A DNA stretch of 47,822 nt from positions 1 through 47,822 of the IMG/VR virus record IMGVR_UViG_3300050138_000170, one strand, 5' to 3'. Position 1 is the first letter of the stretch, and each line of letters starts with the position of its first letter. The notes below the pieces were generated by a model. The model worked only from the letters and a program-made list of their open reading frames with translations, did not search any database and was not told the origin of the DNA. The DNA comes from a virus. The position numbers and the translations under genes are program-made. Positions 6,733-39,096 of the stretch are shown here, one piece after another.

Positions 6733-6948
6733 ATGGCGAAACCGGAAGAAATCAATCTCCGGCCAGGATGGCTGGAAAACGACGTGAAGCGAGCTAAAAG
6801 CCGTCTTGAGCAGTGGAACGGCGCATGGGAACGCGCGAATGCGGTGCTACCGCAGCCAGCGATCTCCCTCCTCCACCATCCAGACGCCATCGACCCGAAC
6901 GAACCGATCGCGATCCCGCTTCGGCCGCACGCGGTAGAACGCCCATGA
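6733..6948 (+). CDS. Small phage protein with RPGWLENDVKRA motif, 71 aa
   Basis: ATG 6733. The N-terminal RPGWLENDVKRAKSRLEQW resembles a small phage protein type with a conserved GWL-x-DV-x-x-A-x-x-R/V core; the function is unknown. The last 34 codons run antisense over the end of the convergent gene at 6847-7158, so the original C-terminus has probably been replaced at a module junction. It lies just downstream of the terminator and may have its own promoter. Confidence 0.5.
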   Translation: MAKPEEINLRPGWLENDVKRAKSRLEQWNGAWERANAVLPQPAISLLHHPDAIDPNEPIAIPLRPHAVERP

Positions 6949-7158
6949 GTCCGGGTCATCGGCATAATGGGCATCGTCTGGATGCAGCCACGGTACCCGC
7001 AAGTGATAATCATCTCCCGGCATACCAAGCGCATTCCACAGCGACTTATGCAGCAACTCCGCTCGGTCTAAATAAAGGCCACGCCAGTTCGACTTCGCGG
7101 TCCAGCGGCCTCCGTTGACGGTGACGGTTTTCGGTCCGATCGGGTGACGGTCAGCCAT
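6847..7158 (-). CDS. Hypothetical protein, 103 aa
   Basis: Last gene of the minus-strand recombination operon. It begins MADRHPIGPKTVTVNGGRW and is rich in Trp, Asp and Arg, ending DRFVRVDGVWMVEEGDRWLR, which is plausible globular protein sequence. The start overlaps the end of the next upstream gene (7151-7158). It converges on and overlaps the plus-strand gene at 6733-6948 by about 100 bases. No family recognised. Confidence 0.55.
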   Translation of the reverse strand: MADRHPIGPKTVTVNGGRWTAKSNWRGLYLDRAELLHKSLWNALGMPGDDYHLRVPWLHPDDAHYADDPDSWAFYRVRPKRDRDRFVRVDGVWMVEEGDRWLR

Positions 7159-7333
7159 CGGTCTGGTTCTTTACTTCGACCAAACTTATTCGGAGCAGTG
7201 ACGCCATTTCCTCTAACATCTCAGCGCGAGCAATGAACAGATTTGCCTCACGCCGAAGTATCGTTGCCCTGCCCTCCAAATCAGCAGAAAACCTTTTCAG
7301 GTCATAATCACCCTTGAATTCATATCTGGGCAT
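7151..7333 (-). CDS. Hypothetical helical protein, 60 aa
   Basis: Start overlaps the stop of the large upstream gene by one base. The sequence after MPRYEFKGDYDLKRFSADLEGR is one long amphipathic helix, ATILRREANLFIARAEMLEE, likely a coiled-coil dimer. Tight packing in the operon supports it being real. Confidence 0.55.
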   Translation of the reverse strand: MPRYEFKGDYDLKRFSADLEGRATILRREANLFIARAEMLEEMASLLRISLVEVKNQTDG

Positions 7334-9291
7334 CAGGCATCGCCTTGCTGAATTTTGGCATCATCTTCGCGATGTTCTGTGGCCGCTTTGTGCGCCCTCA
7401 GTTTTTCCCGCTGTGCCATGAACGCGTCGCGCAGAGGCTCGATCATCGCGGCCTTGTTCGACCTGGTCATCCGCGAGGCAAACCCCTTCACGGCCATGCC
7501 ATTCTGGAATTCAACAAGCTGATCTTCCGATGTGCAGGACAGCATGTCAGCGATCAGGTTTTGTTGCGACCGGATATCATCGGCATCGCTCGGGCTTGCC
7601 GCGGCGGTCGGTGCGGGAGACACAGGATCCTGTGATGCGGGGGCAATCAACCCAAGTAATTCTGCTGGCGCATCAACCCCGAGCGTCTTGCACTGCTCCC
7701 GAACCGCCTTGATGCAGAGCGCGCGGAATGACGCCGGAATTTTTCGCAGCTCGGCCATATTCAGTGCGACAAAGTCCTGATAGGTGAGCAGAGTCAGCGC
7801 ATCGACCTCGACCTTGAATTCTTTCAGATGCAACGCGTTCATCTGTTTGCCGCGGTCCATCTTAACCTCAACCACGATCGCGCGGGGAGGGTCATAGGCC
7901 AGTATGCCGGCCTCTTCCACATGCTTGTGCTCGGGACCGACTGACATCAGACCATCCAGTAGATGGGAAGCCTCTATGCTCGCTCCTTTTGCGTCCTGAA
8001 TGCCATCCGCGTTCTGCTCCCAGAGCGCATCCCAATCGTCTAAATCAACCATTACTGCCTCGGTGAAGACTCTCACGAACACAAGCGGATCTGAGTAGAC
8101 AATGGGGCTCATCGGATCGCCGTTCCGATCAAGAAGCATCGCCTCGAACGCCGGGGCGGCGACCGCAGGTTCACGCTCAGCCTCGGCGCGCGACACAGGC
8201 GCGGTTGCCAGTGTGGAGTCTATTAGCGGCCTGCCGGCGGCCTCTCCCTCCCAACGATCGGTCGGAATTTCGTCCAGGTGGTCAGGTGCATCTTTCGATC
8301 GCTGGGCTGTCGCGCGGTCGCGGTCTTGTGCCTTCTGGACGTCGGCTGCGCTCGGCGCTACGGGCGATGCCGGCGCTTCCTTTGCGGCAGCTTTCCGCGT
8401 CGTCTGTCGCGGCTGCACTGCTGACGCCGTTGCCGCGGCGTGTTGCGTCTCGACGGCATTCCATGTCGCGCTGGCGCCAGTCTCCGGTTCAAACCAATCA
8501 GAGGCCGCGCTCATCTCATCCGTCAGAGACGCATAAATCTTGCTCAATTGCACAATGTGAGCCGGCCGGATCGCCTCCATGCGGCGTTGAATACGCTTCT
8601 CCAACATTTGGCGCGTCACGCCCATCCGATCGAATGCCTCGACCATTTTCAGTACCGCGTCCGGCGAGGTGTCTGCGTTGGCATGAATCGTGCGCTCGCA
8701 TTCCTGGATAGCCATCTCGATAACGTCGCCAGGGATCACGGCCAGAAGGACGGCGCGCTTGCGACGCTGGCCAAGATTGAAAATTATTTCGTAGATGTCG
8801 CGTTCTTCTTTGAGGGGATGACCTCCCTGTTTTGTGTCGCGCCAGTGGCGAACCTGGAACTGCCGTTCGTCGTAATACCCGGACTCCAGATCCCAGGCAT
8901 AGGCGACGCATTCTGAGTAGCTAGGTCCCCTGCTCAGTTCCTTAATCCCTGAGGCTAGATTCCCCCATCGTTGCGCGACCGCCTCGGCCAGGCGAATTGA
9001 CGGCCCGGTGATATCCTGGCCTCCGCGCGCGTAGCTGTAGAGCGCTTTGGCGGCCAAGCTCTCCCGCGCACAATCCCGGATGATCTGATCCACTGCCCGG
9101 CCAGGATCGCGTGGCATCTGCCGGGCCATGATCATGCGGGCCTGGACCTCGGCGATGGCCCTCTGCTGCTCCACGGATATCAGCCCTTGCCAGCTGCTTA
9201 CGGTGGCAAGTTCCTTCCCATTGCCAAACGGGTTTTTCCCGTCCTGGAAGGCTCTCAAGCGCGGGGCTTCGGGGCGTTCGACGTCACTCAT
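7333..9291 (-). CDS. Putative phage recombination-associated protein, 652 aa
   Basis: The first 270 residues match, from memory, a widespread phage family with the signature YARGGQDITGPSIRLAEAVAQRWGN and, later, KRIQRRMEAIRPAHIVQLSKIYASL. It is usually found with recombination genes and sometimes annotated as a single-strand annealing or RecT-like protein. An Ala-rich linker follows, then a second domain with DPPRAIVVEVKMDRGKQMN. The start at 9291 follows GGAG six bases upstream, just past the CRISPR array. Reading further upstream would translate CRISPR repeats and is rejected. Residues LLDRNGDP near 386-393 are encoded by DNA that nearly matches spacer 1 of the array. Confidence 0.6.
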   Translation of the reverse strand: MSDVERPEAPRLRAFQDGKNPFGNGKELATVSSWQGLISVEQQRAIAEVQARMIMARQMPRDPGRAVDQIIRDCARESLAAKALYSYARGGQDITGPSIRLAEAVAQRWGNLASGIKELSRGPSYSECVAYAWDLESGYYDERQFQVRHWRDTKQGGHPLKEERDIYEIIFNLGQRRKRAVLLAVIPGDVIEMAIQECERTIHANADTSPDAVLKMVEAFDRMGVTRQMLEKRIQRRMEAIRPAHIVQLSKIYASLTDEMSAASDWFEPETGASATWNAVETQHAAATASAVQPRQTTRKAAAKEAPASPVAPSAADVQKAQDRDRATAQRSKDAPDHLDEIPTDRWEGEAAGRPLIDSTLATAPVSRAEAEREPAVAAPAFEAMLLDRNGDPMSPIVYSDPLVFVRVFTEAVMVDLDDWDALWEQNADGIQDAKGASIEASHLLDGLMSVGPEHKHVEEAGILAYDPPRAIVVEVKMDRGKQMNALHLKEFKVEVDALTLLTYQDFVALNMAELRKIPASFRALCIKAVREQCKTLGVDAPAELLGLIAPASQDPVSPAPTAAASPSDADDIRSQQNLIADMLSCTSEDQLVEFQNGMAVKGFASRMTRSNKAAMIEPLRDAFMAQREKLRAHKAATEHREDDAKIQQGDA

Positions 9292-9321
9292 AGGGGTCTC
9301 CACGGTAATAGCGGTTTGGTT

Positions 9322-9533
9322 CGGTTCATCCCCGCGTGTGCGGGGAACGCTCGGAACCCGGATCTCCGTTCCGATCAAGAAGCGGTTCATCCCCGCGTGT
9401 GCGGGGAACGCCGGCATGGCAGGCCGGGCTCGATGGGGAGCTGCGGTTCATCCCCGCGTGTGCGGGGAACGCACTTCCGGCTGTTCCGGTTCGGCCTCTC
9501 CGAACGGTTCATCCCCGCACATGCGGGGAACGC
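9322..9533 (-). CRISPR. Type I-E mini-CRISPR array: 4 repeats, 3 spacers
   Basis: Repeats of 29 bp lie at 9322-9350, 9383-9411, 9444-9472 and 9505-9533; spacers of exactly 32 bp lie between them. The plus strand reads CGGTTCATCCCCGCG... to GCGGGGAACGC, the classic type I-E repeat, with palindrome CCCCGC/GCGGGG. The fourth repeat differs only in the loop (ACAT for GTGT). Comparison with the E. coli repeat puts crRNA on the minus strand, the same direction as the surrounding operon, with an ATGAACCG 5' handle. No cas genes or obvious leader are present. All spacers resemble genes of this phage: 1 the gene at 7333-9291, 2 the gene at 11328-11948, 3 the gene at 9448-9789. Host Cas proteins would be required. 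Confidence 0.95.
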
Positions 9534-9789
9534 CCATCTCGCAGGCGCGGGCGGTCGCATTGTCCGGCTCGGCCTCACCGAACATAAGCTCGGGATCCTC
9601 CTCCTCAATTTCTTCCAGCTTAAGTCCCTCTAAGAACGGAATGTCATGCTTCGATTCGACAAACCTCCTTTTCAGATCGCCGGCGTATTCAACCCGGCGG
9701 CTCCGGCGAGCAATTCCAACCATCTGATATGCGTCCTCGTCTGAGAGCGCCCACTGATTGTAACCGACGGTAATCACCAGCATTTTCAT
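9448..9789 (-). CDS. Hypothetical protein whose C-terminus runs into the CRISPR array, 113 aa
   Basis: Starts MKMLVITVGYNQWALSDEDAYQMVGIARRSRRVEY after AGGAGTGT. The first ~85 residues, ending EEEDPELMFGEAEPDNATA, look like genuine protein. The last ~28 codons are translated from CRISPR repeat and spacer DNA (MCGDEP, FGEAEPEQPEV, SPHTRG), and the stop lies in repeat 3. FGEAEPEQPEV, encoded by spacer 3, echoes the gene's own FGEAEPDNATA. The array therefore appears to have landed at or near the 3' end of this gene. Function unknown. Confidence 0.6.
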   Translation of the reverse strand: MKMLVITVGYNQWALSDEDAYQMVGIARRSRRVEYAGDLKRRFVESKHDIPFLEGLKLEEIEEEDPELMFGEAEPDNATARACEMGVPRMCGDEPFGEAEPEQPEVRSPHTRG

Positions 9790-9804
9790 TACACACTCCT
9801 GGGT

Positions 9805-10686
9805 TTAGACGCTGTGAACTTCCTTAATCACCACGCCGGGAACACTGCGCACTTTTTCCGATCTCACGGCGTATCCGATGCGCGACGCATTGAATTGCAG
9901 GTAAACCAGCAATCTCGGGTCTTTTGCCGCGGCTGCTACCAGATCGGCCAGCTCCGATTCATGTTCAATGAATTGCCACGTCGTGCGGCTACTCATCACG
10001 CCGCCGTAGACGCCATGCACACGGGTCCGATCGGCTGCCGGTGCGTTTACCGCCGCGTCGGCCTGCTCGGCCTCCTGATAGGCTGTGGCGGCTTTGTCGA
10101 GGGCTTCCGGATCGTCGGATGCCAGTGCCTCGGCTGCGGCAATCTCAGCGGCTGCGCGCTTGCGCTCGGCCTCCGCCTTCTCGTTCTGTAGTTTTTCGGC
10201 GTTGGACCAATCTGTGTACCAAGTGCCCCATTCGATAATGCGGTTGAGCGGGGCGGATGCTCCACGCTGGACCTTTCCTTTGGCATCGGTGACGACGATC
10301 TGGTCAATTAGCGCGTTTTTTGCCCCATCGATCGCCTTTGACGCGCGCAAAACGGGTTCCTTTTCGAGCACGTGCAACGACAGGATCGTTTTGTGAACCG
10401 ACCTGAAATCAGCCCGGATGTCGGCGAGCCGGCCGAGCAATTCGTCATCCCACAATTCCACGCCCTCCGGCTTCCCCCCAACGGTCGCCGGCTTTGTTAA
10501 GGGGTATTGCGCGAGGATGCTGTCGAGCTGCGCCGTCATCGCGACCACACGTTCTGCTGATGGCGCCAGCACGCGGCGCATGTGATTATCCCATCCATCA
10601 GGAGCCAGGACAATCGTTGGGCCTACAATTTCCTCCGGCGGATGGTTGTGTCCAGGGCCAGGAACATAGCGCCATTCTTCAATCAT
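9805..10686 (-). CDS. Hypothetical phage protein, 293 aa
   Basis: The start at 10686 gives MIEEWRYVPGPGHNHPPEE, an N-terminus typical of phage early proteins of unknown function; longer versions reading upstream overlap the next gene and look non-coding. The middle (residues ~150-215) is an Ala/Glu/Lys-rich helical stretch, probably coiled coil (EKAEAERKRAAAEIAAAEAL). The C-terminus has mixed strands. The operon position beside the recombination-type gene suggests DNA metabolism, but no motif proves it. Confidence 0.6.
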   Translation of the reverse strand: MIEEWRYVPGPGHNHPPEEIVGPTIVLAPDGWDNHMRRVLAPSAERVVAMTAQLDSILAQYPLTKPATVGGKPEGVELWDDELLGRLADIRADFRSVHKTILSLHVLEKEPVLRASKAIDGAKNALIDQIVVTDAKGKVQRGASAPLNRIIEWGTWYTDWSNAEKLQNEKAEAERKRAAAEIAAAEALASDDPEALDKAATAYQEAEQADAAVNAPAADRTRVHGVYGGVMSSRTTWQFIEHESELADLVAAAAKDPRLLVYLQFNASRIGYAVRSEKVRSVPGVVIKEVHSV

Positions 10687-11057
10687 CAAAAATCTTCGCT
10701 CCGCAACAATCGCGTGTTGATCGGCTGTGTCGGGTTTACTGACGGGTGGCCCGGCGAATGGATCTGGGCCCAATCGCGGATTGCGTTTCGATGCGCGTAG
10801 ACGGCCTCGGTGCATGGCTGGCCGTGGATCAGCAGTTGTGTGATCGGATCGTATCTGTCGCCGGTCAGCCACCCCGCGACACGTTCGTCCAGATCGTCCG
10901 GCGTCATCAACGGATACGCTGTACCGTCGACTTCGAACACGTAGCAGCCGTCCAAAACGTGAACGCACGCCGGGACTGGCCATCCGCGCGACCGGAGCCG
11001 CACGGTATACAGGCCAGGCTCGGGGCGGGAGGCGTTGCGGGGAGGGGGTTTGCTCAT
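10686..11057 (-). CDS. Hypothetical protein, 123 aa
   Basis: First gene of the minus-strand recombination operon. ATG 11057 (MSKPPPRNASRPEPG) was chosen over an upstream ATG that would sit in the divergent promoter region. Contains beta-rich segments GLYTVRLRSRGWPVPACVHVLDGCYVFEVDG. It shares one base with the next gene (TGATG). No family recognised. Confidence 0.55.
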   Translation of the reverse strand: MSKPPPRNASRPEPGLYTVRLRSRGWPVPACVHVLDGCYVFEVDGTAYPLMTPDDLDERVAGWLTGDRYDPITQLLIHGQPCTEAVYAHRNAIRDWAQIHSPGHPSVNPTQPINTRLLRSEDF

Positions 11058-11105
11058 GGGCCGAATATCCCCGCTATCGCTTCCGGTGTCAAGCACCGTC
11101 ACCAA

Positions 11106-11134
11106 TTGACAATGGCGGCATGACACTAGATTAT
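11106..11134 (+). promoter_or_regulatory. Candidate sigma70-type promoter for the replication block
   Basis: TTGACA (11106-11111) is a perfect -35 box, 17 bases before GATTAT (11129-11134). The predicted transcript would start at about 11141, exactly at an ATG, implying leaderless translation of the first gene. It lies between the divergent gene starts at 11057 and 11141. Confidence 0.5.
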
Positions 11135-11140
11135 ATCCCT

Positions 11141-11452
11141 ATGGCCGACAAACCTAAACGCAAGGGAACTGCCTTTTGGTTTCCTGACAGCCTGGGAGGC
11201 TTGCTACACGCGGTCGCTCACGCTGAAGATCGCACGTTGCCGACAGTTCTGGCGCGCGCGCTTCAGATCTACGCTTCGACGAGTCCGGAATATCAGAATG
11301 CACTCTCACTCTCACAGGAATCCAAAGATGGCGAAATCAGCACCGAAGAAAGCAGCGGATCAGACCTCCCCGGCAAAGCCGCGCGGGCGCCCTCCGGGAT
11401 CGAAAAACCAAAGTGTGTACGCGGGTCCTTTGGCTTCCGCGCCAGAAACTAA
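11141..11452 (+). CDS. Hypothetical small protein, possible DNA-binding, 103 aa
   Basis: Begins MADKPKRKGTAFWFPDSLGG, then LLHAVAHAEDRTLPTVLARALQIYA. The strand-helix-helix impression recalls ribbon-helix-helix proteins, but this is weak. The last ~40 codons overlap the next gene in another frame and may not be conserved. ATG 11120 is possible but would lie inside the promoter spacer, so 11141 is preferred. Confidence 0.45.
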   Translation: MADKPKRKGTAFWFPDSLGGLLHAVAHAEDRTLPTVLARALQIYASTSPEYQNALSLSQESKDGEISTEESSGSDLPGKAARAPSGIEKPKCVRGSFGFRARN

Positions 11453-11948
11453 TGGACCGAGCGACGACGACATAAAGGGATGGCTCGCTGAGGCCACCGA
11501 GATCGAGACCGCGATGGCACGCGTTCGCCAAAAAATGTCCACGCTCAAAAAGGACGTAGAGGGCGGCGCGGGCGACTGGAAAGCGCTGAAGGCCGCGCTC
11601 GCCAGCACGAAACTTTCCAAGGCCGAGGCGATAGCCAATCTCGAAGCCGCCGTCCGTTACCACAAGGCAATAAGTGTCCGCGTGTCGTTCGACCCGGACG
11701 GACAGGGTACATTTGCCGATCTCGTTGAGGAGACGGTGAACGGGTTCTCTGGCGCAGTCGATGAAAAGCTGTCCGCCGCACGGGCAAAAAGCGACGGCTT
11801 CAATTCGAGTCGCCTGGGTGGGACACGCGAGGATAATCCGTTCAATCCTGGCTCCTTGGAATACGCGGCATGGCAGGAAGGACTGGATCAGGAGGTCCGC
11901 GATCGCGGCACGACGATCTTAGCCGAGACCGGCGAAGTCATTCACTGA
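11328..11948 (+). CDS. Hypothetical helical phage protein, 206 aa
   Basis: ATG 11328 follows AGGAA by about eight bases. The N-terminus is Lys/Pro-rich (MAKSAPKKAADQTSPAKPRGRPPG) with an AT-hook-like KPRGRPPG, followed by a charged helical body. Residues about 180-189, AWQEGLDQEV, are encoded by 11866-11897, which matches spacer 2 of the CRISPR array at 24 of 32 bases; the spacer would encode AWQAGLDGEL. No enzymatic motif is visible. It is followed within 20 bases by the resolvase gene. Confidence 0.6.
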   Translation: MAKSAPKKAADQTSPAKPRGRPPGSKNQSVYAGPLASAPETNGPSDDDIKGWLAEATEIETAMARVRQKMSTLKKDVEGGAGDWKALKAALASTKLSKAEAIANLEAAVRYHKAISVRVSFDPDGQGTFADLVEETVNGFSGAVDEKLSAARAKSDGFNSSRLGGTREDNPFNPGSLEYAAWQEGLDQEVRDRGTTILAETGEVIH

Positions 11949-12686: not shown

Positions 12687-13145
12687 ATGAATGATATCTT
12701 ATACTACGAACTCACCAGTGGCCGCAGGCTGCGGCAAGACGACCTAACCCCTGAAAATCTTGCGCTCGTCCGGTTGGATTCTGGGAACAGTGGCTTCCTG
12801 AAAAATCTTATCAAATGCCTACAGGGAAACACTGAGCACCGGGCGGCGCTGATTGAGGAAGCGCAAGAGGTCATTGACATGGCCCTACGCCTTATCGACC
12901 AGACGATGGCGTGGATCGATTGGGAGACGGCTTCTCCCTCTGGCCATAGGCCACCTATCGACATATTTGATCAGGACAGACGCCGGTTTCTCGGCGCCTA
13001 TCGGGACTTTCTGTCTGAAGAAATCTTCTCAGATGGGTTGAAAGCGGAGACGATACGCTCCACGGAGAATGCTGTTCAGCAGATAGGATATTGCTGCGGA
13101 CCCGCAAATAGTAAAATGGTACCGGAGGAGAACTCTAATGGCTGA
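12687..13145 (+). CDS. Hypothetical protein, 152 aa
   Basis: The start at ATG 12687 is set by a strong AGGAGG site at 12672-12677. The frame stays open upstream to TTG 12507, giving 212 residues, but without a ribosome site. The product begins MNDILYYELTSGRRLRQDDLTPENLALVRL and is helical and acidic, with a Trp-rich centre (MAWIDWETA). The stop overlaps the helicase start by eight bases, suggesting a helicase-linked role such as a loader; no sequence motif supports that. Confidence 0.55.
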   Translation: MNDILYYELTSGRRLRQDDLTPENLALVRLDSGNSGFLKNLIKCLQGNTEHRAALIEEAQEVIDMALRLIDQTMAWIDWETASPSGHRPPIDIFDQDRRRFLGAYRDFLSEEIFSDGLKAETIRSTENAVQQIGYCCGPANSKMVPEENSNG

Positions 13146-15136: not shown

Positions 15137-16107
15137 GTTGGAAAGCAATGATTTGGACCCATAAACTCAGGGTCCAACTATCTTCCGTTGAATATCGGAC
15201 GCTGATGGTCCTCGCAGAACATGCCCACGAAGATGGAAGAGGGGCATATCCGGCGGTAATGACGATCGCCGAACATGCTGAAATGAGCGTTCGTAGCGTA
15301 CAGCGTTCACTGAGGGTCCTTGAAAATCGGGATGTGATATCTCTTCAGAACCCGGCGACACACAGCAGATCCGCAGTCTGGCGATTAAATATGAGCCTGG
15401 ATATTGTCGCGTCTGTCACCCCTCCTGCATTAGAACAGGGGTGCCAACTGGTCCATTTAGGGGTGCCAACTGGTCCATTTAGAGGTGCCAGCGTGGCATC
15501 CGAACCAAAGATAGAACCTAAGATAGAACCTAAGCAGCAAGATAGAATACCAAAAGCGGCTGCGAAGAGAACCCATATCGCGGTAGACTGGACCCCTGGG
15601 CCAGCAGATCGGGAGTATGCCGATAACCTTGGCATTCCAGAGTCTCAGGTCAGCGCTTTCGTCGATTACCATCTTGCGAACGGGACGCTCATGGCGTCCT
15701 GGCCTGCTGCCTGGAGGACCTGGTGCCGTAATTGTACGCGGTTCGGGACAGCGACCGGGAAGCCCAATAAGTCTCAGGAAGAGATTGCGTTCGACGGAAA
15801 CGATGCGTGGGGAGCCGAGGCATGGGCCGCCTCACTGCCAGACGCAAAAACAGGCAAGCTACAGGATGAAACCGAAGTGCTGACTCTGGGTGGCATCGCG
15901 GCAGCGTGGACGGCGCGAGACTGCTGTGAGGCGGCAGGGTTCCCCGCAAGCTGGCGCGGCGACCTGTCACCGGTAGCCCATTGGCTACGTGATCGCCTGG
16001 AGCCGGATGAGGTTATCGAGGCGATCCGGACGAGCACGAAGCCGAACAAGCCAGTGTTGACATACTTCGATCGACGCGTCCGAGAGAAAGCGAGTGTGCG
16101 ATTATGA
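15133..16107 (+). CDS. Putative replication initiator with HTH_36-like domain, 324 aa
   Basis: The start at ATG 15133 overlaps the previous stop. Residues 10-75 form a winged helix: LSSVEYRTLMVLAEHAHEDGRGAYP, then MTIAEHAEMSVRSVQRSLRVLENRDVI. A linker encoded by direct DNA repeats follows (QLVHLGVPTGPFRG), then a C-terminal domain beginning WTPGPADREYADNLGIPESQV, ending in a region with repeated Trp. Iteron-like repeats inside the gene are like those in lambda O. Position after a DnaB helicase fits an initiator that recruits it. Confidence 0.65.
   Translation: MSWKAMIWTHKLRVQLSSVEYRTLMVLAEHAHEDGRGAYPAVMTIAEHAEMSVRSVQRSLRVLENRDVISLQNPATHSRSAVWRLNMSLDIVASVTPPALEQGCQLVHLGVPTGPFRGASVASEPKIEPKIEPKQQDRIPKAAAKRTHIAVDWTPGPADREYADNLGIPESQVSAFVDYHLANGTLMASWPAAWRTWCRNCTRFGTATGKPNKSQEEIAFDGNDAWGAEAWAASLPDAKTGKLQDETEVLTLGGIAAAWTARDCCEAAGFPASWRGDLSPVAHWLRDRLEPDEVIEAIRTSTKPNKPVLTYFDRRVREKASVRL
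15438..15552. other. Candidate replication origin: iterons plus A+T-rich repeats
   Basis: Two copies of GGGGTGCCAACTGGTCCATT start at 15438 and 15460, with a partial third (GAGGTGCCA) at 15482. The period is 22 bp, two helical turns, so binding sites would face the same side of the helix. Downstream at 15508, 15520 and 15539 are AAGATAGAACCT, the same again, and AAGATAGAATACC, an A/T-richer patch that could melt. This is the lambda ori plan: iterons within the initiator gene beside an unwinding element. Confidence 0.55.
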
Positions 16108-16403
16108 GCGTCCTCCTGTCGTCGCCCTCCGAATGGCAGCCTATGCGCGTGGATCTGCTGCGTTGCGACTGCGGATCCGGGGCACAGGTGTTCGCGGTTG
16201 TCCCGGGCCAGGATGCGGTCTATGCGGTCGCGCGGAACTTTCTCGGCATCCCGGACAAACGGCTGGGCTCAATAATGGTGGCCCGGCCGGTCGCGGATCG
16301 TGGGATCTGTGGGGTGTGCTGGAAGAGGAGATACGCTCAGCCGGCGTCGGTGGGCGCGACCGGCAAAGGGACTGTGACGATTCGGACCGTGCCGGACTCC
16401 TGA
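16104..16403 (+). CDS. Hypothetical protein with Cys pairs, 99 aa
   Basis: ATG 16104 overlaps the previous stop. LLRCDCGSGAQVFAVVPG and GICGVCWKRRYAQP contain CxC and CxxC pairs that could bind one zinc ion. The 3' end overlaps a convergent minus-strand gene. Function unknown; operon position suggests a small early DNA-metabolism protein. Confidence 0.55.
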   Translation: MSVLLSSPSEWQPMRVDLLRCDCGSGAQVFAVVPGQDAVYAVARNFLGIPDKRLGSIMVARPVADRGICGVCWKRRYAQPASVGATGKGTVTIRTVPDS

Positions 16404-16525
16404 AGTGCTCGGACCACACGCGCCGCGGTTTCGCCGTAGTGGCCCCAACGTCCGCACCCCTCGTCGATCAAAACGGCGCGGATGATGGCCGCCGCAAGCC
16501 AGTCTACGTCGTCCATTTCTGCCAT
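16337..16525 (-). CDS. Hypothetical protein, 62 aa
   Basis: Last gene of the minus-strand block. MAEMDDVDWLAAAIIRAVLIDEGCGRWG begins nine bases after GGAGGGG. Its 5' end overlaps the preceding gene by 22 bases, and its 3' end overlaps the convergent plus-strand gene by 67 bases. No family recognised. Confidence 0.45.
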   Translation of the reverse strand: MAEMDDVDWLAAAIIRAVLIDEGCGRWGHYGETAARVVRALQESGTVRIVTVPLPVAPTDAG

Positions 16526-16767
16526 CGGGAAAACCCCTCCATCGTGAGGCCATATACAGACACTCGAAGGTCAGGGCCGGCTCCCACGTCGAGGACTTTT
16601 GTTCCGGTCAGCATAATCAGGCCAGCCCCGAGCAGTAGCCTGATACCGGAGCGATTTTGGTCTGGTCCCGGCATGATGCCGACCGCGATGTCTTCAAAAC
16701 AACTCTCGGCGGCCATTCCGAGCCCATGGCAGGGATGATCGTTCAAATCGGCAAAATCGGCAGCCAT
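16504..16767 (-). CDS. Hypothetical protein, 87 aa
   Basis: Begins MAADFADLNDHPCHGLGMAAESCFEDIAVGIMPGP and contains a hydrophobic strand-rich centre (GIRLLLGAGLIMLTGTKVLDVGAGPDLRVSVY). Overlaps both neighbours by 20-25 bases, the usual spacing in this block. No domain recognised. Confidence 0.5.
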   Translation of the reverse strand: MAADFADLNDHPCHGLGMAAESCFEDIAVGIMPGPDQNRSGIRLLLGAGLIMLTGTKVLDVGAGPDLRVSVYGLTMEGFSRWQKWTT

Positions 16768-17060
16768 GGCGTCCGGCCGAGCACCACGAGGGCCATGGTC
16801 GTGGCGAGATCGGCCACGTTCCCGGGCACCTCGCTGATATCCATCGGCTTTATCAGAGCCAGAGGCTCCCCGACGTACCGGTAGCCGGCCCAGATCATCT
16901 GGCCGAGCTGGAAATCAAGGCAATACGCGACATTGACGCGTGCCCCGAACGACGCGATCACCTGAACGTTGGGACATTCGCCCTGGCGCTCCGCGTGGCC
17001 CCCCAGGATGCCCGGGGGACGCCGGTCGCTCGCCACCCATGCAACTTCATTCCGGGTCAT
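16743..17060 (-). CDS. Hypothetical protein, 105 aa
   Basis: MTRNEVAWVASDRRPPGILGGHAERQGECP, then beta-rich sequence (VQVIASFGARVNVAYCLDFQLGQMIWAGYRYVGEP). The 5' end overlaps the upstream gene by four bases. No family recognised. Confidence 0.5.
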   Translation of the reverse strand: MTRNEVAWVASDRRPPGILGGHAERQGECPNVQVIASFGARVNVAYCLDFQLGQMIWAGYRYVGEPLALIKPMDISEVPGNVADLATTMALVVLGRTPWLPILPI

Positions 17061-17332
17061 GACAAGCTATCCAGCATGGCCAGAGCTTTGTCCCGCGGTA
17101 GGCTCCAGATCGTGAGGCCAAGGGGCGCCAGGATCGCGGCTATTTCGCCTTTCTCCCAGCCGCCGGATGGTACTTCCAGCCATTCACACATGCGCCTTAT
17201 TTGCCGCGATCTGTCCGGCTCAGGAAGTCCCATTATCCGCCCTCGCAGGTCCCGCTCGGCCATCGCCTGGCGTTCGACTTCTCGTTTGGCGCTTTCCAAC
17301 ATCCATTCATGGTCGCGCGTGTATTGGTTCAT
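17057..17332 (-). CDS. Hypothetical helical protein, 91 aa
   Basis: A long amphipathic helix, YTRDHEWMLESAKREVERQAMAERDLRGRI, precedes a compact C-terminal part with GGWEKGEIAAILAPLGLTIWSLPRDKALAMLDSL. Overlaps both neighbours by four bases. No family recognised. Confidence 0.55.
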   Translation of the reverse strand: MNQYTRDHEWMLESAKREVERQAMAERDLRGRIMGLPEPDRSRQIRRMCEWLEVPSGGWEKGEIAAILAPLGLTIWSLPRDKALAMLDSLS

Positions 17333-19843: not shown

Positions 19844-20023
19844 ATGCGTACCCCGATAAACCTGTTTCCCATGGGAATGCCGTACCACGACCGCCGCACG
19901 GCGTGGGAAGACCGCACGTCCCGGTACCATTGGCGGCGAGGGTTTATCTGTGGGGTCGTCAGTTCGGCCGGAGCGCTTTTCTTTGGTGGGCTCCTCGGCT
20001 GTATATTCGCGTATCTGGCGTGA
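19844..20023 (+). CDS. Small membrane protein, 59 aa (cassette copy 1)
   Basis: Strong AGGAGG site at 19829-19834. The N-terminus MRTPINLFPMGMPYHDRRTAW is unique to this copy. From RTSRYHWRRG onward it is identical to the gene at 20303, with a membrane helix FICGVVSSAGALFFGGLLGCIFAYLA preceded by basic residues. Its stop overlaps the next GTG start. It is one half of a duplicated two-gene cassette. Confidence 0.7.
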   Translation: MRTPINLFPMGMPYHDRRTAWEDRTSRYHWRRGFICGVVSSAGALFFGGLLGCIFAYLA

Positions 20024-20130
20024 AAGCTCCACCGCCGCCCGGTCGCCTGGACTCGTACCATGACGCGGTCGAGCTGGCGCGCCGCGGCATCGGTCTGTTT
20101 GCTCAATCAGCACTGAAGGAAATCACGTAA
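20020..20130 (+). CDS. Small protein, 36 aa (cassette copy 1)
   Basis: GTG 20020 overlaps the previous stop (GTGA). The first 18 codons (VKAPPPPGRLDSYHDAVE) match the gene at 20527; after that the two diverge. This version ends with LARRGIGLFAQSALKEIT and has no membrane segment, so it is probably a shortened copy. Its stop overlaps the next ATG. Confidence 0.5.
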   Translation: MKAPPPPGRLDSYHDAVELARRGIGLFAQSALKEIT

Positions 20131-20306
20131 TGAAAGTCGTAACAAACTTCTGGCTCAAGCCCGTACCTTCCCGCCGCTTCGATTGGTCCGCCATCGATGA
20201 CGATACCTACGATGGAGCGCCTGACTCCCGCTGTCCAGTTGGATACGGCAAGACCGAGGAAGATGCCATCGCGGACCTGATGCAACAGATTGAGGATGTG
20301 GCATGA
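20130..20306 (+). CDS. Hypothetical protein, 58 aa
   Basis: ATG overlaps the previous stop and its own stop overlaps the next ATG. MKVVTNFWLKPVPSRRFDWSAIDDDTYDG, then GYGKTEEDAIADLMQQIEDV, an acidic helix commonly seen in small phage proteins. Lies between the two repeat copies, so it is unduplicated. Confidence 0.6.
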   Translation: MKVVTNFWLKPVPSRRFDWSAIDDDTYDGAPDSRCPVGYGKTEEDAIADLMQQIEDVA

Positions 20307-20530
20307 TGCAAAACAGTCGAGACATGCTGCGCCGGCTTGTGGACGTTGCCTGGCAGGCGGCGACACAATCCACCGAGGTTCCATCAACGAGATTGGCTGA
20401 CAAGATGATCAACCAGGCCCGCACGTCCCGGTACCATTGGCGGCGAGGGTTTATCTGTGGGGTCGTCAGTTCGGCCGGAGCGCTTTTCTTTGGTGGGCTC
20501 CTCGGCTGTATATTCGCGTATCTGGCGTGA
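20303..20530 (+). CDS. Small membrane protein, 75 aa (cassette copy 2)
   Basis: MMQNSRDMLRRLVDVAWQAATQSTEVPSTRLADK is a helical N-terminus different from copy 1; the shared part begins at ARTSRYHWRRG and includes the membrane helix. The shared C-terminus with an unlike N-terminus indicates domain replacement through the repeat. Confidence 0.7.
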   Translation: MMQNSRDMLRRLVDVAWQAATQSTEVPSTRLADKMINQARTSRYHWRRGFICGVVSSAGALFFGGLLGCIFAYLA

Positions 20531-20703
20531 AAGCTCCACCGCCGCCGGGTCGCCTGGACTCGTACCATGACGCGGTCGAGCGCGCGCGGCACGATTTCGA
20601 GATGTACCGCCAGAGGCGCAGGATACGTAATCGGCTCATAATCGTGCTGGCGATATGGTTTACGGTCATTGGAGCGCTGGCCTTCTTTACGCTCGGCGGG
20701 TGA
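20527..20703 (+). CDS. Small membrane protein, 58 aa (cassette copy 2)
   Basis: GTG 20527 overlaps the previous stop. VKAPPPPGRLDSYHDAVE matches copy 1; then ERARHDFEMYRQRRRIRN leads to a membrane helix LIIVLAIWFTVIGALAFFTLGG. The stop TGA at 20701-20703 is also the first bases of the second TnpB element (TGAACTACTCC), so the native gene may have been longer. Confidence 0.65.
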   Translation: MKAPPPPGRLDSYHDAVERARHDFEMYRQRRRIRNRLIIVLAIWFTVIGALAFFTLGG

Positions 20704-35664: not shown

Positions 35665-38600
35665 ATGAGTGCCACGCTCGCCCCACCGCCGCCGCCGAAC
35701 GGCATATCCTCTATCGCGGCCCTCGCCGGCGGGACCGGTGCGTCCCCGCCCATCTCCTCTGAGCCTGATGATCATCCCAATCCAGAGTTACGCGATCAAC
35801 TGACGCGCTGGGTTGGCATGAAGAACATCGCGGCCGATCCCGACGACAATATGGAACCGAACCCGGAGATCGGTGACGATATCGCGCGCATCGCGGCCCG
35901 GGTGCGCTCTGACTATGACATCGACGAACTGAGCCGGGCCGACTGGCGCGAGAAATATCGCAAGTGGCTGGACTGCGCTTTGCAGGTCACTGAGCACAAA
36001 ACCTATCCATGGCCTGAGGCGTGCTTTTCACTCGATACCGATGTTCTGACCGATTCGGGTTGGAAGCCAGTCGCCGAGATCGCCATCGGTGAAAGGGTCC
36101 TCAGTCGCGCGCCATCCGGTGCCGCGGCATTCTATCCGGTGACCGAGCGCCATCGGTTCACGGCTCTGTCAATGGTGCATTTCACCGGTAAGAGCATCGA
36201 CCTGATGGTGACGCCGAACCACAGGATGTTGGTCGAGAGCAAGTTCGGCAAGCGGAAGAAGCAGCATTTCATCGAGGCGGGGCGGTTCTTGGAGGAGCGT
36301 CTGGCATTTCGATACATCCCGCTTACGTCGCAGTGGACGGGCGACCCCCTGTCGGAGATCCATGGGGTAAGTGCGGAGGCGTACGCGCGATTCCTGGGTT
36401 GGTACATCTCCGAGGGCTCGGCCTTCACTGGACACAATACCCACACATTGAAGGATGGAACTTTCAGGGATTATGGAAAGAGTCCGAGCAGCTTCGCTAT
36501 CGCGCAGAGCCAGACCGCCAACCCCGTAAAGTTCGAACGCCTTCGGCACGACATCGAAGCCTGTAGGTTCACCTGTAAAGCCACGCCCACCGGTTACATC
36601 GTTCATGCCAGGTCGATGCCCAATGCTGCGAAAGACGAACTTAGATCGCTTGGTTTATCACACCAGAAACATGTGCCTGATTACCTGCTGACAGCGTCCG
36701 TTCCGGTACTCAAGGCCCTCCTTGATGGCCTGATGGCCGGTGATGGCTGCATTCGGGAACGCAATGGAAAGGAGGAAAGCTGGTCCTATTCTACTGTTTC
36801 CCGCCGGTTGTCCGACCAGATGCAGGACATATGTCAGAAGATTGGCTGGCGCGCGACCGTGGCGGAAAGAGCGGCGGTCGTCGGAGGGGTAATCAACGGG
36901 CGGCAAATCACCGGGGCTCAAACTTGCTACCTGATCGCGATCAACCGCAAGTCCCGTATCCAGGTCGTTAAAATGGACCGGCAAGCGGTCTTTGGACCAT
37001 GCGAGGTCGCCTGCGTCACCGTCGAACCGCACCACACACTCTATGTGCGCCGCAACGGCAAAGCCCTCTGGTGCGGCAACTCCAATGTCATATATCCGCT
37101 GATGACGACGGCGGCCATCCAATTTGCCGCCCGCGCTTACCCGGCGATCATCCGAGATCGCAACGTCGTCAAGGGCACCGTCATTGGCGACGACAAAGGC
37201 GTGATCAATCCGGCGTTTGTGCATCTGCTACAAGCCGCGCACGCGCATGATCAGGCGATGGCGCAGCAGCAACAGCAGGGAGGGCAGCCACCGCCGGGCG
37301 GCCCGCCTCCTGGCGCTCAACCCCCAGGCCCTGGTCCTATGCAGCAGTCAGGACCGGCCGCGTCGCCTCAGCCGGGTCCCGGAATGCCGCCGCCAGGACA
37401 GGCCGGCCCCGGTATGGGGCTCCCGGCGGGGATGCCGCGGCAGTGGCTGGAAGAGCCCGGGGCAAAGCAAAAGCGAGCGCTCCGCATCGGCCGGCACATG
37501 AGCTGGCAGCTTCTGTTCGAACAAGAGGAATGGGAACCGCAGACCGACACGCTTCTGGTGGCACTCCCGATCGTCGGCACGTATTTCCGCAAGTCCTACT
37601 ACGATCAAAGCCTCGGCCGGAACGTGAGCGAGACTGTCGACGCACTGGCGCTATGCGTGAATTATTACGCCAAGAGCTTTGAGACATCGCCTCGAAAAAC
37701 AGAGTCGATCCGGATGTACCCGGACGAAATCGAGACAGCGATCCGCTCCGGTCTGTTCATTGATTGGGACGGTGACGGTGCGCTGGCCTATGGCCATGAC
37801 AGCGGCGTCACCATGGAGGACGAGAAGCGGCGCGATCCCAATAGCCAGCAGGACGAGGACGCGGCGGTCACCTTCCTGGAACAGCATCGGCGCTGGGATC
37901 TGGATGGCGATGGCTATCCCGAGCCGTACATCATCACCGTGGCGCGCGACAGCGGCAAACTCGCGCGCATCGTCGCCGGCTTCGAAATGGATGGGGTGCA
38001 TTTCAACCGGAAGGGCCAGGTTCGGAAAATCGACGTCGTCGCTGTCTATACGAAATACGGGTTCATCCCGAACCCCGACTCCAAGGTCTACGATCTTGGC
38101 TTCGGGCATCTCCTGTTTCCGATCAACGAAGCGGTGAACACCACCATAAATATGATGATCGACTCCGGGCACCTTCAGATCGTCGGCGGCGGTTTCATCG
38201 GGTCCGGGCTGTCGATCAATACCGGCACGGTCCGGTTCACCCATGGCGAGTACAAGCCGGTCAACACGTTCGGCGGGAACATCCGCGACAACATTTACCA
38301 GATACCGTTCCCTGGCCCCAACCCGATCCTGATGCAGTTGCTGCAATTCCTGATCGAATCTGGCGAACGTGTCGCCTCCGTGAAGGACGTCATGGTCGGC
38401 GACATGCCGGGCGACAACACCTCAGGCATCACGACGCTGGCAGTGATCGAGCAGGGCCTGAAGGTGTTCTCCGCGATCTACAAGCGGATCCACCGCTCGC
38501 TCGGCTACGAGTTCAAAAAACAATACCAGCTGAACCGAAAGTATAGCCGTAAGGAATCGCAGTACCAGGAAGGCGGCGACTGGAAGACGATCACCAGGGA

Positions 38601-39096
38601 AGATTACGAAAAAGGCGCCGGCGTCGAGCCGATCAGTGATCCGCAGATGGTTACCGACATGCAACGCCTCGGCAGGGCACAGTTCCTGCTGACCTTCAAG
38701 GATGATCCTCGCGTCAAGGGGGAGAAAATCATTCTCGACGCGTTCACCGCGGCGATGATCCCGGACGCTGAAAGCTACATGACAGAGGCGCCGGCGCAGC
38801 CTGATCCAAAGATTCTGCTGAAAAGCCGCGAGCTGGATATCCGCGAGAAACGGGAGATGATCGAACTGATGTTGCGCCACGAACATGACAAGGCGCTGAT
38901 CATCGGGGAGATATGCAAGGCCGAATTGGCGTTGGCTCAGGCGAGGAAGCTTGACAATGACGCGCAACTGGGGTGGGTGGAGCAACATATTGAACACCTG
39001 AAAGCACAGGTCGATGCCATTGCCACCCTATCGCCCCCGCCAGCCGGTCCCACCGCCGATGCCGGGGGAGGAGCGAGTCCCCCCGCTTCTCCGTGA
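35665..39096 (+). CDS. Portal protein with in-frame intein, 1143 aa precursor
   Basis: The dodecameric portal is the DNA channel of the capsid. Without the intein the protein is about 790 residues. The flanking extein KTYPWPEA/SNVIYPLMTTAAIQFAARAYPAI matches the conserved PWPGASNVKYPL-type portal motif of this group. A long Pro/Gln/Gly insertion (AMAQQQQQGGQPPPGGPPPG...) at residues ~530-590 is unusual. Later motifs FGHLLFPINEAVNTTINMMIDSGHLQIVGGG and MPGDNTSGITTLAVIEQGLKVFSAIYKRI fit the same portal type. The C-terminus overlaps the next gene by about 80 bases. Confidence 0.85.
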   Translation: MSATLAPPPPPNGISSIAALAGGTGASPPISSEPDDHPNPELRDQLTRWVGMKNIAADPDDNMEPNPEIGDDIARIAARVRSDYDIDELSRADWREKYRKWLDCALQVTEHKTYPWPEACFSLDTDVLTDSGWKPVAEIAIGERVLSRAPSGAAAFYPVTERHRFTALSMVHFTGKSIDLMVTPNHRMLVESKFGKRKKQHFIEAGRFLEERLAFRYIPLTSQWTGDPLSEIHGVSAEAYARFLGWYISEGSAFTGHNTHTLKDGTFRDYGKSPSSFAIAQSQTANPVKFERLRHDIEACRFTCKATPTGYIVHARSMPNAAKDELRSLGLSHQKHVPDYLLTASVPVLKALLDGLMAGDGCIRERNGKEESWSYSTVSRRLSDQMQDICQKIGWRATVAERAAVVGGVINGRQITGAQTCYLIAINRKSRIQVVKMDRQAVFGPCEVACVTVEPHHTLYVRRNGKALWCGNSNVIYPLMTTAAIQFAARAYPAIIRDRNVVKGTVIGDDKGVINPAFVHLLQAAHAHDQAMAQQQQQGGQPPPGGPPPGAQPPGPGPMQQSGPAASPQPGPGMPPPGQAGPGMGLPAGMPRQWLEEPGAKQKRALRIGRHMSWQLLFEQEEWEPQTDTLLVALPIVGTYFRKSYYDQSLGRNVSETVDALALCVNYYAKSFETSPRKTESIRMYPDEIETAIRSGLFIDWDGDGALAYGHDSGVTMEDEKRRDPNSQQDEDAAVTFLEQHRRWDLDGDGYPEPYIITVARDSGKLARIVAGFEMDGVHFNRKGQVRKIDVVAVYTKYGFIPNPDSKVYDLGFGHLLFPINEAVNTTINMMIDSGHLQIVGGGFIGSGLSINTGTVRFTHGEYKPVNTFGGNIRDNIYQIPFPGPNPILMQLLQFLIESGERVASVKDVMVGDMPGDNTSGITTLAVIEQGLKVFSAIYKRIHRSLGYEFKKQYQLNRKYSRKESQYQEGGDWKTITREDYEKGAGVEPISDPQMVTDMQRLGRAQFLLTFKDDPRVKGEKIILDAFTAAMIPDAESYMTEAPAQPDPKILLKSRELDIREKREMIELMLRHEHDKALIIGEICKAELALAQARKLDNDAQLGWVEQHIEHLKAQVDAIATLSPPPAGPTADAGGGASPPASP
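36022..37080 (+). other. Intein, 353 aa, with LAGLIDADG endonuclease
   Basis: Begins CFSLDTDVLTDSGWKPVAEI (Cys1), has TPNHRML (block B) at intein residues 64-70, FLGWYISEG (LAGLIDADG helix 1) at 124-132, ALLDGLMAGDG (helix 2) at 232-242, and ends VEPHHTLYVRRNGKALWCGN before Ser. The penultimate residue is Gly rather than the usual His. Inserted at the conserved portal motif, which gives a target that competitors must keep. Splicing is expected but not shown. Confidence 0.85.

Follow-up and report, generated by a model that had tools for sequence, protein, structure and literature searches.

Published virus-borne mini-arrays are cas-less, have host-type repeats, carry spacers against adjacent genes of related viruses and show self-avoidance, and recombination with host arrays has been suggested for those in phages because they have no leader (PMC6858448, PMC7099407, PMC11656645). 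The original prediction for the locus described here, which lies in a 47,822-bp stretch of viral DNA (positions 1-47,822 of IMGVR_UViG_3300050138_000170; hereafter the window), held that mini-arrays are known mainly from archaeal viruses. This is not supported, given the many bacteriophage and prophage cases of 2019 (Faure et al., as far as they are described in the citing papers PMC6858448 and PMC7099407) and Saccharomonospora phage PIS 136. The most informative fact about the locus is what its spacers match, which was absent from that prediction.

Structure and setting of the array

The array occupies positions 9322-9533 of the window and consists of four 29-nt repeats and three spacers, each exactly 32 nt, with start-to-start distances of 61, 61, and 61:

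9322..9350, minus strand: CRISPR repeat 4 (last in transcription sense), consensus
9351..9382, minus strand: spacer s1, CTTCTTGATCGGAACGGAGATCCGGGTTCCGA; read in the frame of the gene for a probable single-strand annealing/recombination protein (SSAP), it encodes LLDRNGDPGS
9383..9411, minus strand: CRISPR repeat 3, consensus
9412..9443, minus strand: spacer s2, CAGCTCCCCATCGAGCCCGGCCTGCCATGCCG; antisense of AWQAGLDGEL
9444..9472, minus strand: CRISPR repeat 2, consensus; contains the TGA (9448-9450) that ends the gene at 9448-9789
9473..9504, minus strand: spacer s3, TTCGGAGAGGCCGAACCGGAACAGCCGGAAGT; encodes FGEAEPEQPE
9505..9533, minus strand: CRISPR repeat 1 (first in transcription sense), loop variant GCATGTGC

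In the minus sense the repeat reads GCGTTCCCCGCACACGCGGGGATGAACCG in three of the four copies, while the loop of the remaining copy, at 9505-9533 and first in the sense of transcription, reads GCATGTGC; both the consensus and the loop variant fold into the expected stem-loop. The 29-nt repeat is palindromic with a 3′ handle of the ATGAACCG type and, together with the 32-nt spacers, has the form of a type I-E array; Rfam returned no match. The exact 29-mer was found in only 21 stretches among 257 Gb of genomes and 11.3 million contigs searched, nearly all of them CRISPR arrays and most from Alphaproteobacteria (Hyphomicrobiales, Acidocella, Humitalea, Rhodospirillales, Hyphomonadaceae, and Pannonibacter). 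This rarity, together with three copies of the 29-mer at fixed spacing, excludes a chance origin of the array. Since the repeat is identical to those of chromosomal arrays, and Cas8e (Cse1) was present in 10 of the 14 checked genomes that carry it, the array was assigned to type I-E. The same 29-nt I-E repeat also occurs singly, at 6937-6965 of an unrelated low-GC (42%) viral contig (L002, IMGVR_UViG_3300000059_000021), where it is a candidate Racr or solitary repeat unit.

Cas8e had no match in the window record, and PADLOC, applied to 37 window proteins and part of the remaining genome, returned no I-E cas genes, only TnpB-type “Cas12f” and weak matches. The “Cas12f” matches were rejected as a CRISPR effector because they come from TnpB outside the window. 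The gene in question, at 15428-17065 of IMGVR_UViG_3300050190_000052 (L048), encodes a TnpB-family RNA-guided nuclease (OrfB_IS605, Cas12f1-like TNB domain) and belongs to the genome of this phage, close to the tail collar gene.

The array sits between two minus-strand genes of a phage recombination operon, and its sense is that of the operon. The surrounding features are as follows:

7333..9291, minus strand: 652-aa protein, phrog_3657, probable SSAP
9448..9789, minus strand: 113-aa small gene, with the array supplying the codons of its final ~27 residues and its stop
9805..10983, minus strand: exonuclease-like protein, phrog_10477 (ORF length; start position tentative)
11064..11092, minus strand: sigma-70-like promoter candidate (consensus match only), lying upstream of the operon (exonuclease – small gene – array – SSAP)
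11298..11948, plus strand: conserved early protein, 216 aa, gene matched by s2

By consensus matches only, a promoter-like pair near 11064-11134 faces both directions, and no terminator-like site was found on the operon strand in the region. The sequence upstream of the array had no similarity to the leaders of 40 host arrays. A 694-aa ORF starting at 9417 was rejected as an artefact in view of an ATG with a ribosome-binding site at 9291, about where the true start of the 652-aa gene lies. The original prediction had described four 29-bp repeats with exact 32-bp spacers, which was confirmed in its coordinates and its 61-bp period; the type I-E assignment was borne out by repeat identity and by Cas8e in 10 of the 14 genomes checked, and the search of the repeat against alphaproteobacterial host arrays that it had proposed found the identical repeat in many Alphaproteobacteria. 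Its further claims, that the array shares the sense of the surrounding operon (both are on the minus strand) and that this operon is without cas genes, also held, the latter for I-E cas genes in the proteins scanned.

A second IMG/VR contig, IMGVR_UViG_3300050190_000052 (58,285 bp), carries an identical array. It has another 18,851 bp in common with the window, differs by 4 SNPs, none of them in the array, and has different ends; it contributes ~19 kb of extra phage genome, which together with the window gives a genome of ~67 kb. A third record, whose capsid gene is identical, ends at window position 20548 and leaves the array uncovered. Short direct repeats lie at 19912-20587, where the contigs of two longer relatives end (20545 and 20548), and possibly cause these contig breaks. 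The original prediction would have fallen if assembly had wrongly fused host CRISPR reads with phage sequence at the locus. Metagenomic contigs are the only source of the array, but two non-identical contigs agree and the spacers match adjacent phage genes, so such an artefact is hardly credible.

IMG/VR contained hundreds of major-capsid relatives, and in four of these an annealing-protein gene could be recognised. Synteny was best with G405 (capsid 88%), where the exonuclease gene is followed by a small gene (73 aa), an RNase T exonuclease gene, and the gene for a RecT protein; the small gene of G405 is homologous to that at 9448-9789 (alignment score 58 vs. a shuffle maximum of 46), and the RecT protein of G405 has the C-terminal domain of the 652-aa window protein. 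Because a RecT domain is fused there to the same C-terminal domain, the 652-aa protein probably functions in annealing/recombination; its single-sequence fold was of too poor quality for use. By this synteny, the slot that the array occupies, directly ahead of the gene for the annealing protein, is a variable one. No array repeats or protospacers were found in the regions of capsid relatives with an annealing-protein gene, and the early regions of the relatives are too divergent to reveal an empty site. Around the locus there was no DNA similarity to named phages, and searches by the annealing protein, the gene at 11298, or DnaB recovered only the second contig and one distant DnaB (24%). Elsewhere in the window, at 35665-39096, the portal gene has an intein-like insert, with Hint and LAGLIDADG-like domains inside a 1143-aa ORF.

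Origin of the spacers and the likely host

When the window was searched with the array masked, the best match of every spacer fell in the phage’s own early genes near the array; all three lie within 8105-11897 on the minus strand:

8105..8136, minus strand: partial match to s1, 24/32, with identity at positions 1-17 and 19-24; 5′ PAM ATG
9551..9582, minus strand: partial match to s3, 22/32, with 18 identities in the first 20 positions; 5′ PAM ATG
11866..11897, minus strand: partial match to s2, 24/32; seed mismatched; no PAM (GCG)

Of 683 control spacers, taken from host arrays that share the repeat, 5.0% had their best match in the same zone and on the same strand, a rate that gives about 1e-4 for all three spacers. 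Taken alone, the match scores of s2 and s3 are weak or modest and that of s1 is above all controls, its 23/24 run being equalled by none of 457 control spacers and none of 1000 shuffles. An AWG PAM (ATG) adjoins two of the three own sites, vs. AAG or ATG in 2.3% of controls. By codon, the differences between spacer and own gene are synonymous or conservative: LLDRNGDP[G/M]S for s1 (codons GGA/GGC and TCC/AGC), FGEAEP[E/D][Q/N][P/A] for s3 (GGA/GGT and GAA/GAG), and AWQ[A/E]GLD[G/Q]E[L/V] for s2 (GGG/GGA and CTC/CTG). Motifs conserved in the family contain the s1 peptide (FEAFVLDENGDP in G405, FAHVVMDQRGEP in G417) and the s2 peptide (EYVAWHDGRDE in G405, AYVQWHNGRDE in G403). The shared zone and strand, the codon-wise differences, and the conserved motifs together identify the spacers as pieces of homologous genes of related phages; they show that all three descend from genes of this phage family. 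Degenerate pattern scans of IMG/VR found no exact protospacers, and matches outside this phage were to unrelated genes, so the targeted relatives are putative.

Each own site carries 8-10 mismatches, which lie mainly in the PAM-distal part for s1 and s3 and in the seed and PAM for s2; those of s1 are at positions 18, 25-29, 31, and 32. This divergence should spare the carrier. In Escherichia coli, a type I-E target mismatched across positions 25-32 was fully bound by Cascade without interference, and adaptation was still primed (PMC5904413). If that result transfers to this phage, cleavage of its own s1 site would be unlikely, and priming against that site would be possible.

Capsid relatives at 74-77% identity were found as prophages in 13 of 397 genomes of Acetobacterales, the order of Humitalea, and a class-wide comparison yielded three weaker capsid relatives among 385 genomes. 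The repeat, with at most two mismatches, occurred in 29 of the 397 Acetobacterales genomes. Cas8e was present in at least 7 of the 13 prophage-bearing genomes vs. 60 of 348 in Acetobacterales (Fisher p = 0.002, uncorrected for kinship and from two samples that need not coincide). From these observations we reason that the host order is probably Acetobacterales, i.e., acetic-acid-type bacteria. The Acetobacterales prophage stretches taken contained no early-gene match. Matches of host spacers to the phage or its relatives were at chance level, with no AWG PAM beside the best window matches inspected.

Proposed function and competing explanations

We consider it probable that this cas-less I-E mini-array uses the Cascade/Cas3 of the host for heterotypic superinfection exclusion of related phages. 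The type I-E array would have been captured from a host chromosome by recombination; three spacers on one strand and from a single phage family would be consistent with a host array that had grown by primed adaptation before its capture. Read-through transcription would make it part of the operon transcript (exonuclease – small gene – array – annealing protein), which host Cas6e could plausibly cut into three crRNAs to be loaded into host Cascade. The crRNAs would direct Cascade/Cas3 against homologous genes of related phages entering the same cell, and the carrier would escape its own crRNAs because its copies of the targeted genes have diverged. We infer all of these steps: transcription of the array, processing by Cas6e, interference with relatives, and capture by recombination.

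The repeats could alternatively be the active part, acting once transcribed as a decoy or RNA anti-CRISPR that titrates Cas6e/Cascade or forms unproductive complexes, like Racr, with the spacers secondary. The Racr mechanism is established (PMC10651486), the repeat here is identical to host repeats and lies within a phage operon, and L002 has a solitary copy of it; however, complete 32-nt spacers flanked by full repeats make functional crRNAs, and a decoy would not need spacers that all come from the phage family, so we regard this explanation as unlikely. It is quite unlikely that the locus is a passive hitchhiker, i.e., a host-array fragment with anti-phage spacers that recombined into the phage and is neither expressed nor used. 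Although it has no leader, the last part of the small gene is shared with its first repeat, and three same-strand spacers from one phage family resemble a host array made by primed adaptation, three of the repeats equal the consensus, every spacer is exactly 32 nt, the array shares the operon strand, on which the region has no terminator-like site, and it is unchanged in two contigs.

The own sites raise the question of an action on the carrier itself, whereby Cascade, guided by crRNAs with a seed match and an ATG PAM, would bind the phage’s annealing-protein and small genes without cleavage and repress both. This seems most improbable, given that the own s2 site lacks seed and PAM, that the sites are inside genes, not at promoters, and that their divergence has the pattern of ordinary homologues, even though the own s1 site keeps its PAM and positions 1-17 and 19-24, and sites with PAM-distal mismatches bind Cascade fully without interference (PMC5904413). 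Also very unlikely is a dual role, in which the array would cleave relatives while non-cleaving Cascade at the own sites with PAM and seed (8105-8136 and 9551-9582) would repress or time the phage’s recombination operon, or prime spacer acquisition by the host.

The locus provides a clean bacterial type I-E case from a tailed phage, in which every spacer is traceable to the carrier’s own family and to array-adjacent genes, and interviral CRISPR targeting becomes testable in the best-understood CRISPR subtype. The array also bears on the route of leaderless arrays into phages (recombination with host arrays) and informs the cost of near-self spacers, since the mismatch pattern of its own s1 site blocked interference but allowed priming in E. 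coli.

Comparison with described systems

The mini-arrays of SPV1 and SPV2 (Medvedeva et al. 2019, PMC6858448) are likewise cas-less, with host-type repeats and spacers that match related viruses close to the array, and their own sites are mutated; they are archaeal, however, with 1-2 spacers and a host-like leader (PMC6858448), whereas the present array belongs to a tailed phage and is type I-E, leaderless, and set in an operon, with three spacers. The mini-arrays that Faure et al. 2019 reported from phages and prophages are, as described in the papers citing them (PMC6858448, PMC7099407, PMC11656645), similarly leaderless, with host-identical repeats and spacers against adjacent genes of related viruses; by the same descriptions they typically have 1-2 spacers, whereas here there are three, within the 3′ end of a gene. 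Three spacers are one above the strict mini-array definition of 1-2 (PMC6858448), from which the overlap with a gene end also sets this array apart.

Racr and other solitary repeat units share a host-type repeat in a phage without cas genes, but have no spacers (PMC10651486), whereas the four repeats here, in place of a single one, delimit complete crRNA units. The CRISPR arrays of huge phages are also compact, some without effectors of their own, and have spacers against other phages; those phages exceed 200 kb and often have cas genes (PMC7162821), whereas this phage is about 67 kb, with no I-E cas genes found. Saccharomonospora phage PIS 136 (JX006077.1) has two I-E-like mini-arrays with the same 61-bp period, at 12901-13050 and 15680-15890 (3 and 4 repeats, respectively, unannotated in the features shown), but with other repeat ends (GCGGAT/C) and no notable spacer self-match in the 50 kb searched. 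Separately, Streptomyces phage Eklok (MT521991.1, 34394-34690; also AxeJC) contains an intergenic row of six degenerate, I-E-like hairpin repeats spaced 49-61 bp apart, which may represent an array in decay or a repeat decoy. The strategy is thus already described, and the window array is a clear new example of it, with three spacers; new here are spacer matches in the phage’s own early genes, on one strand and near the array.
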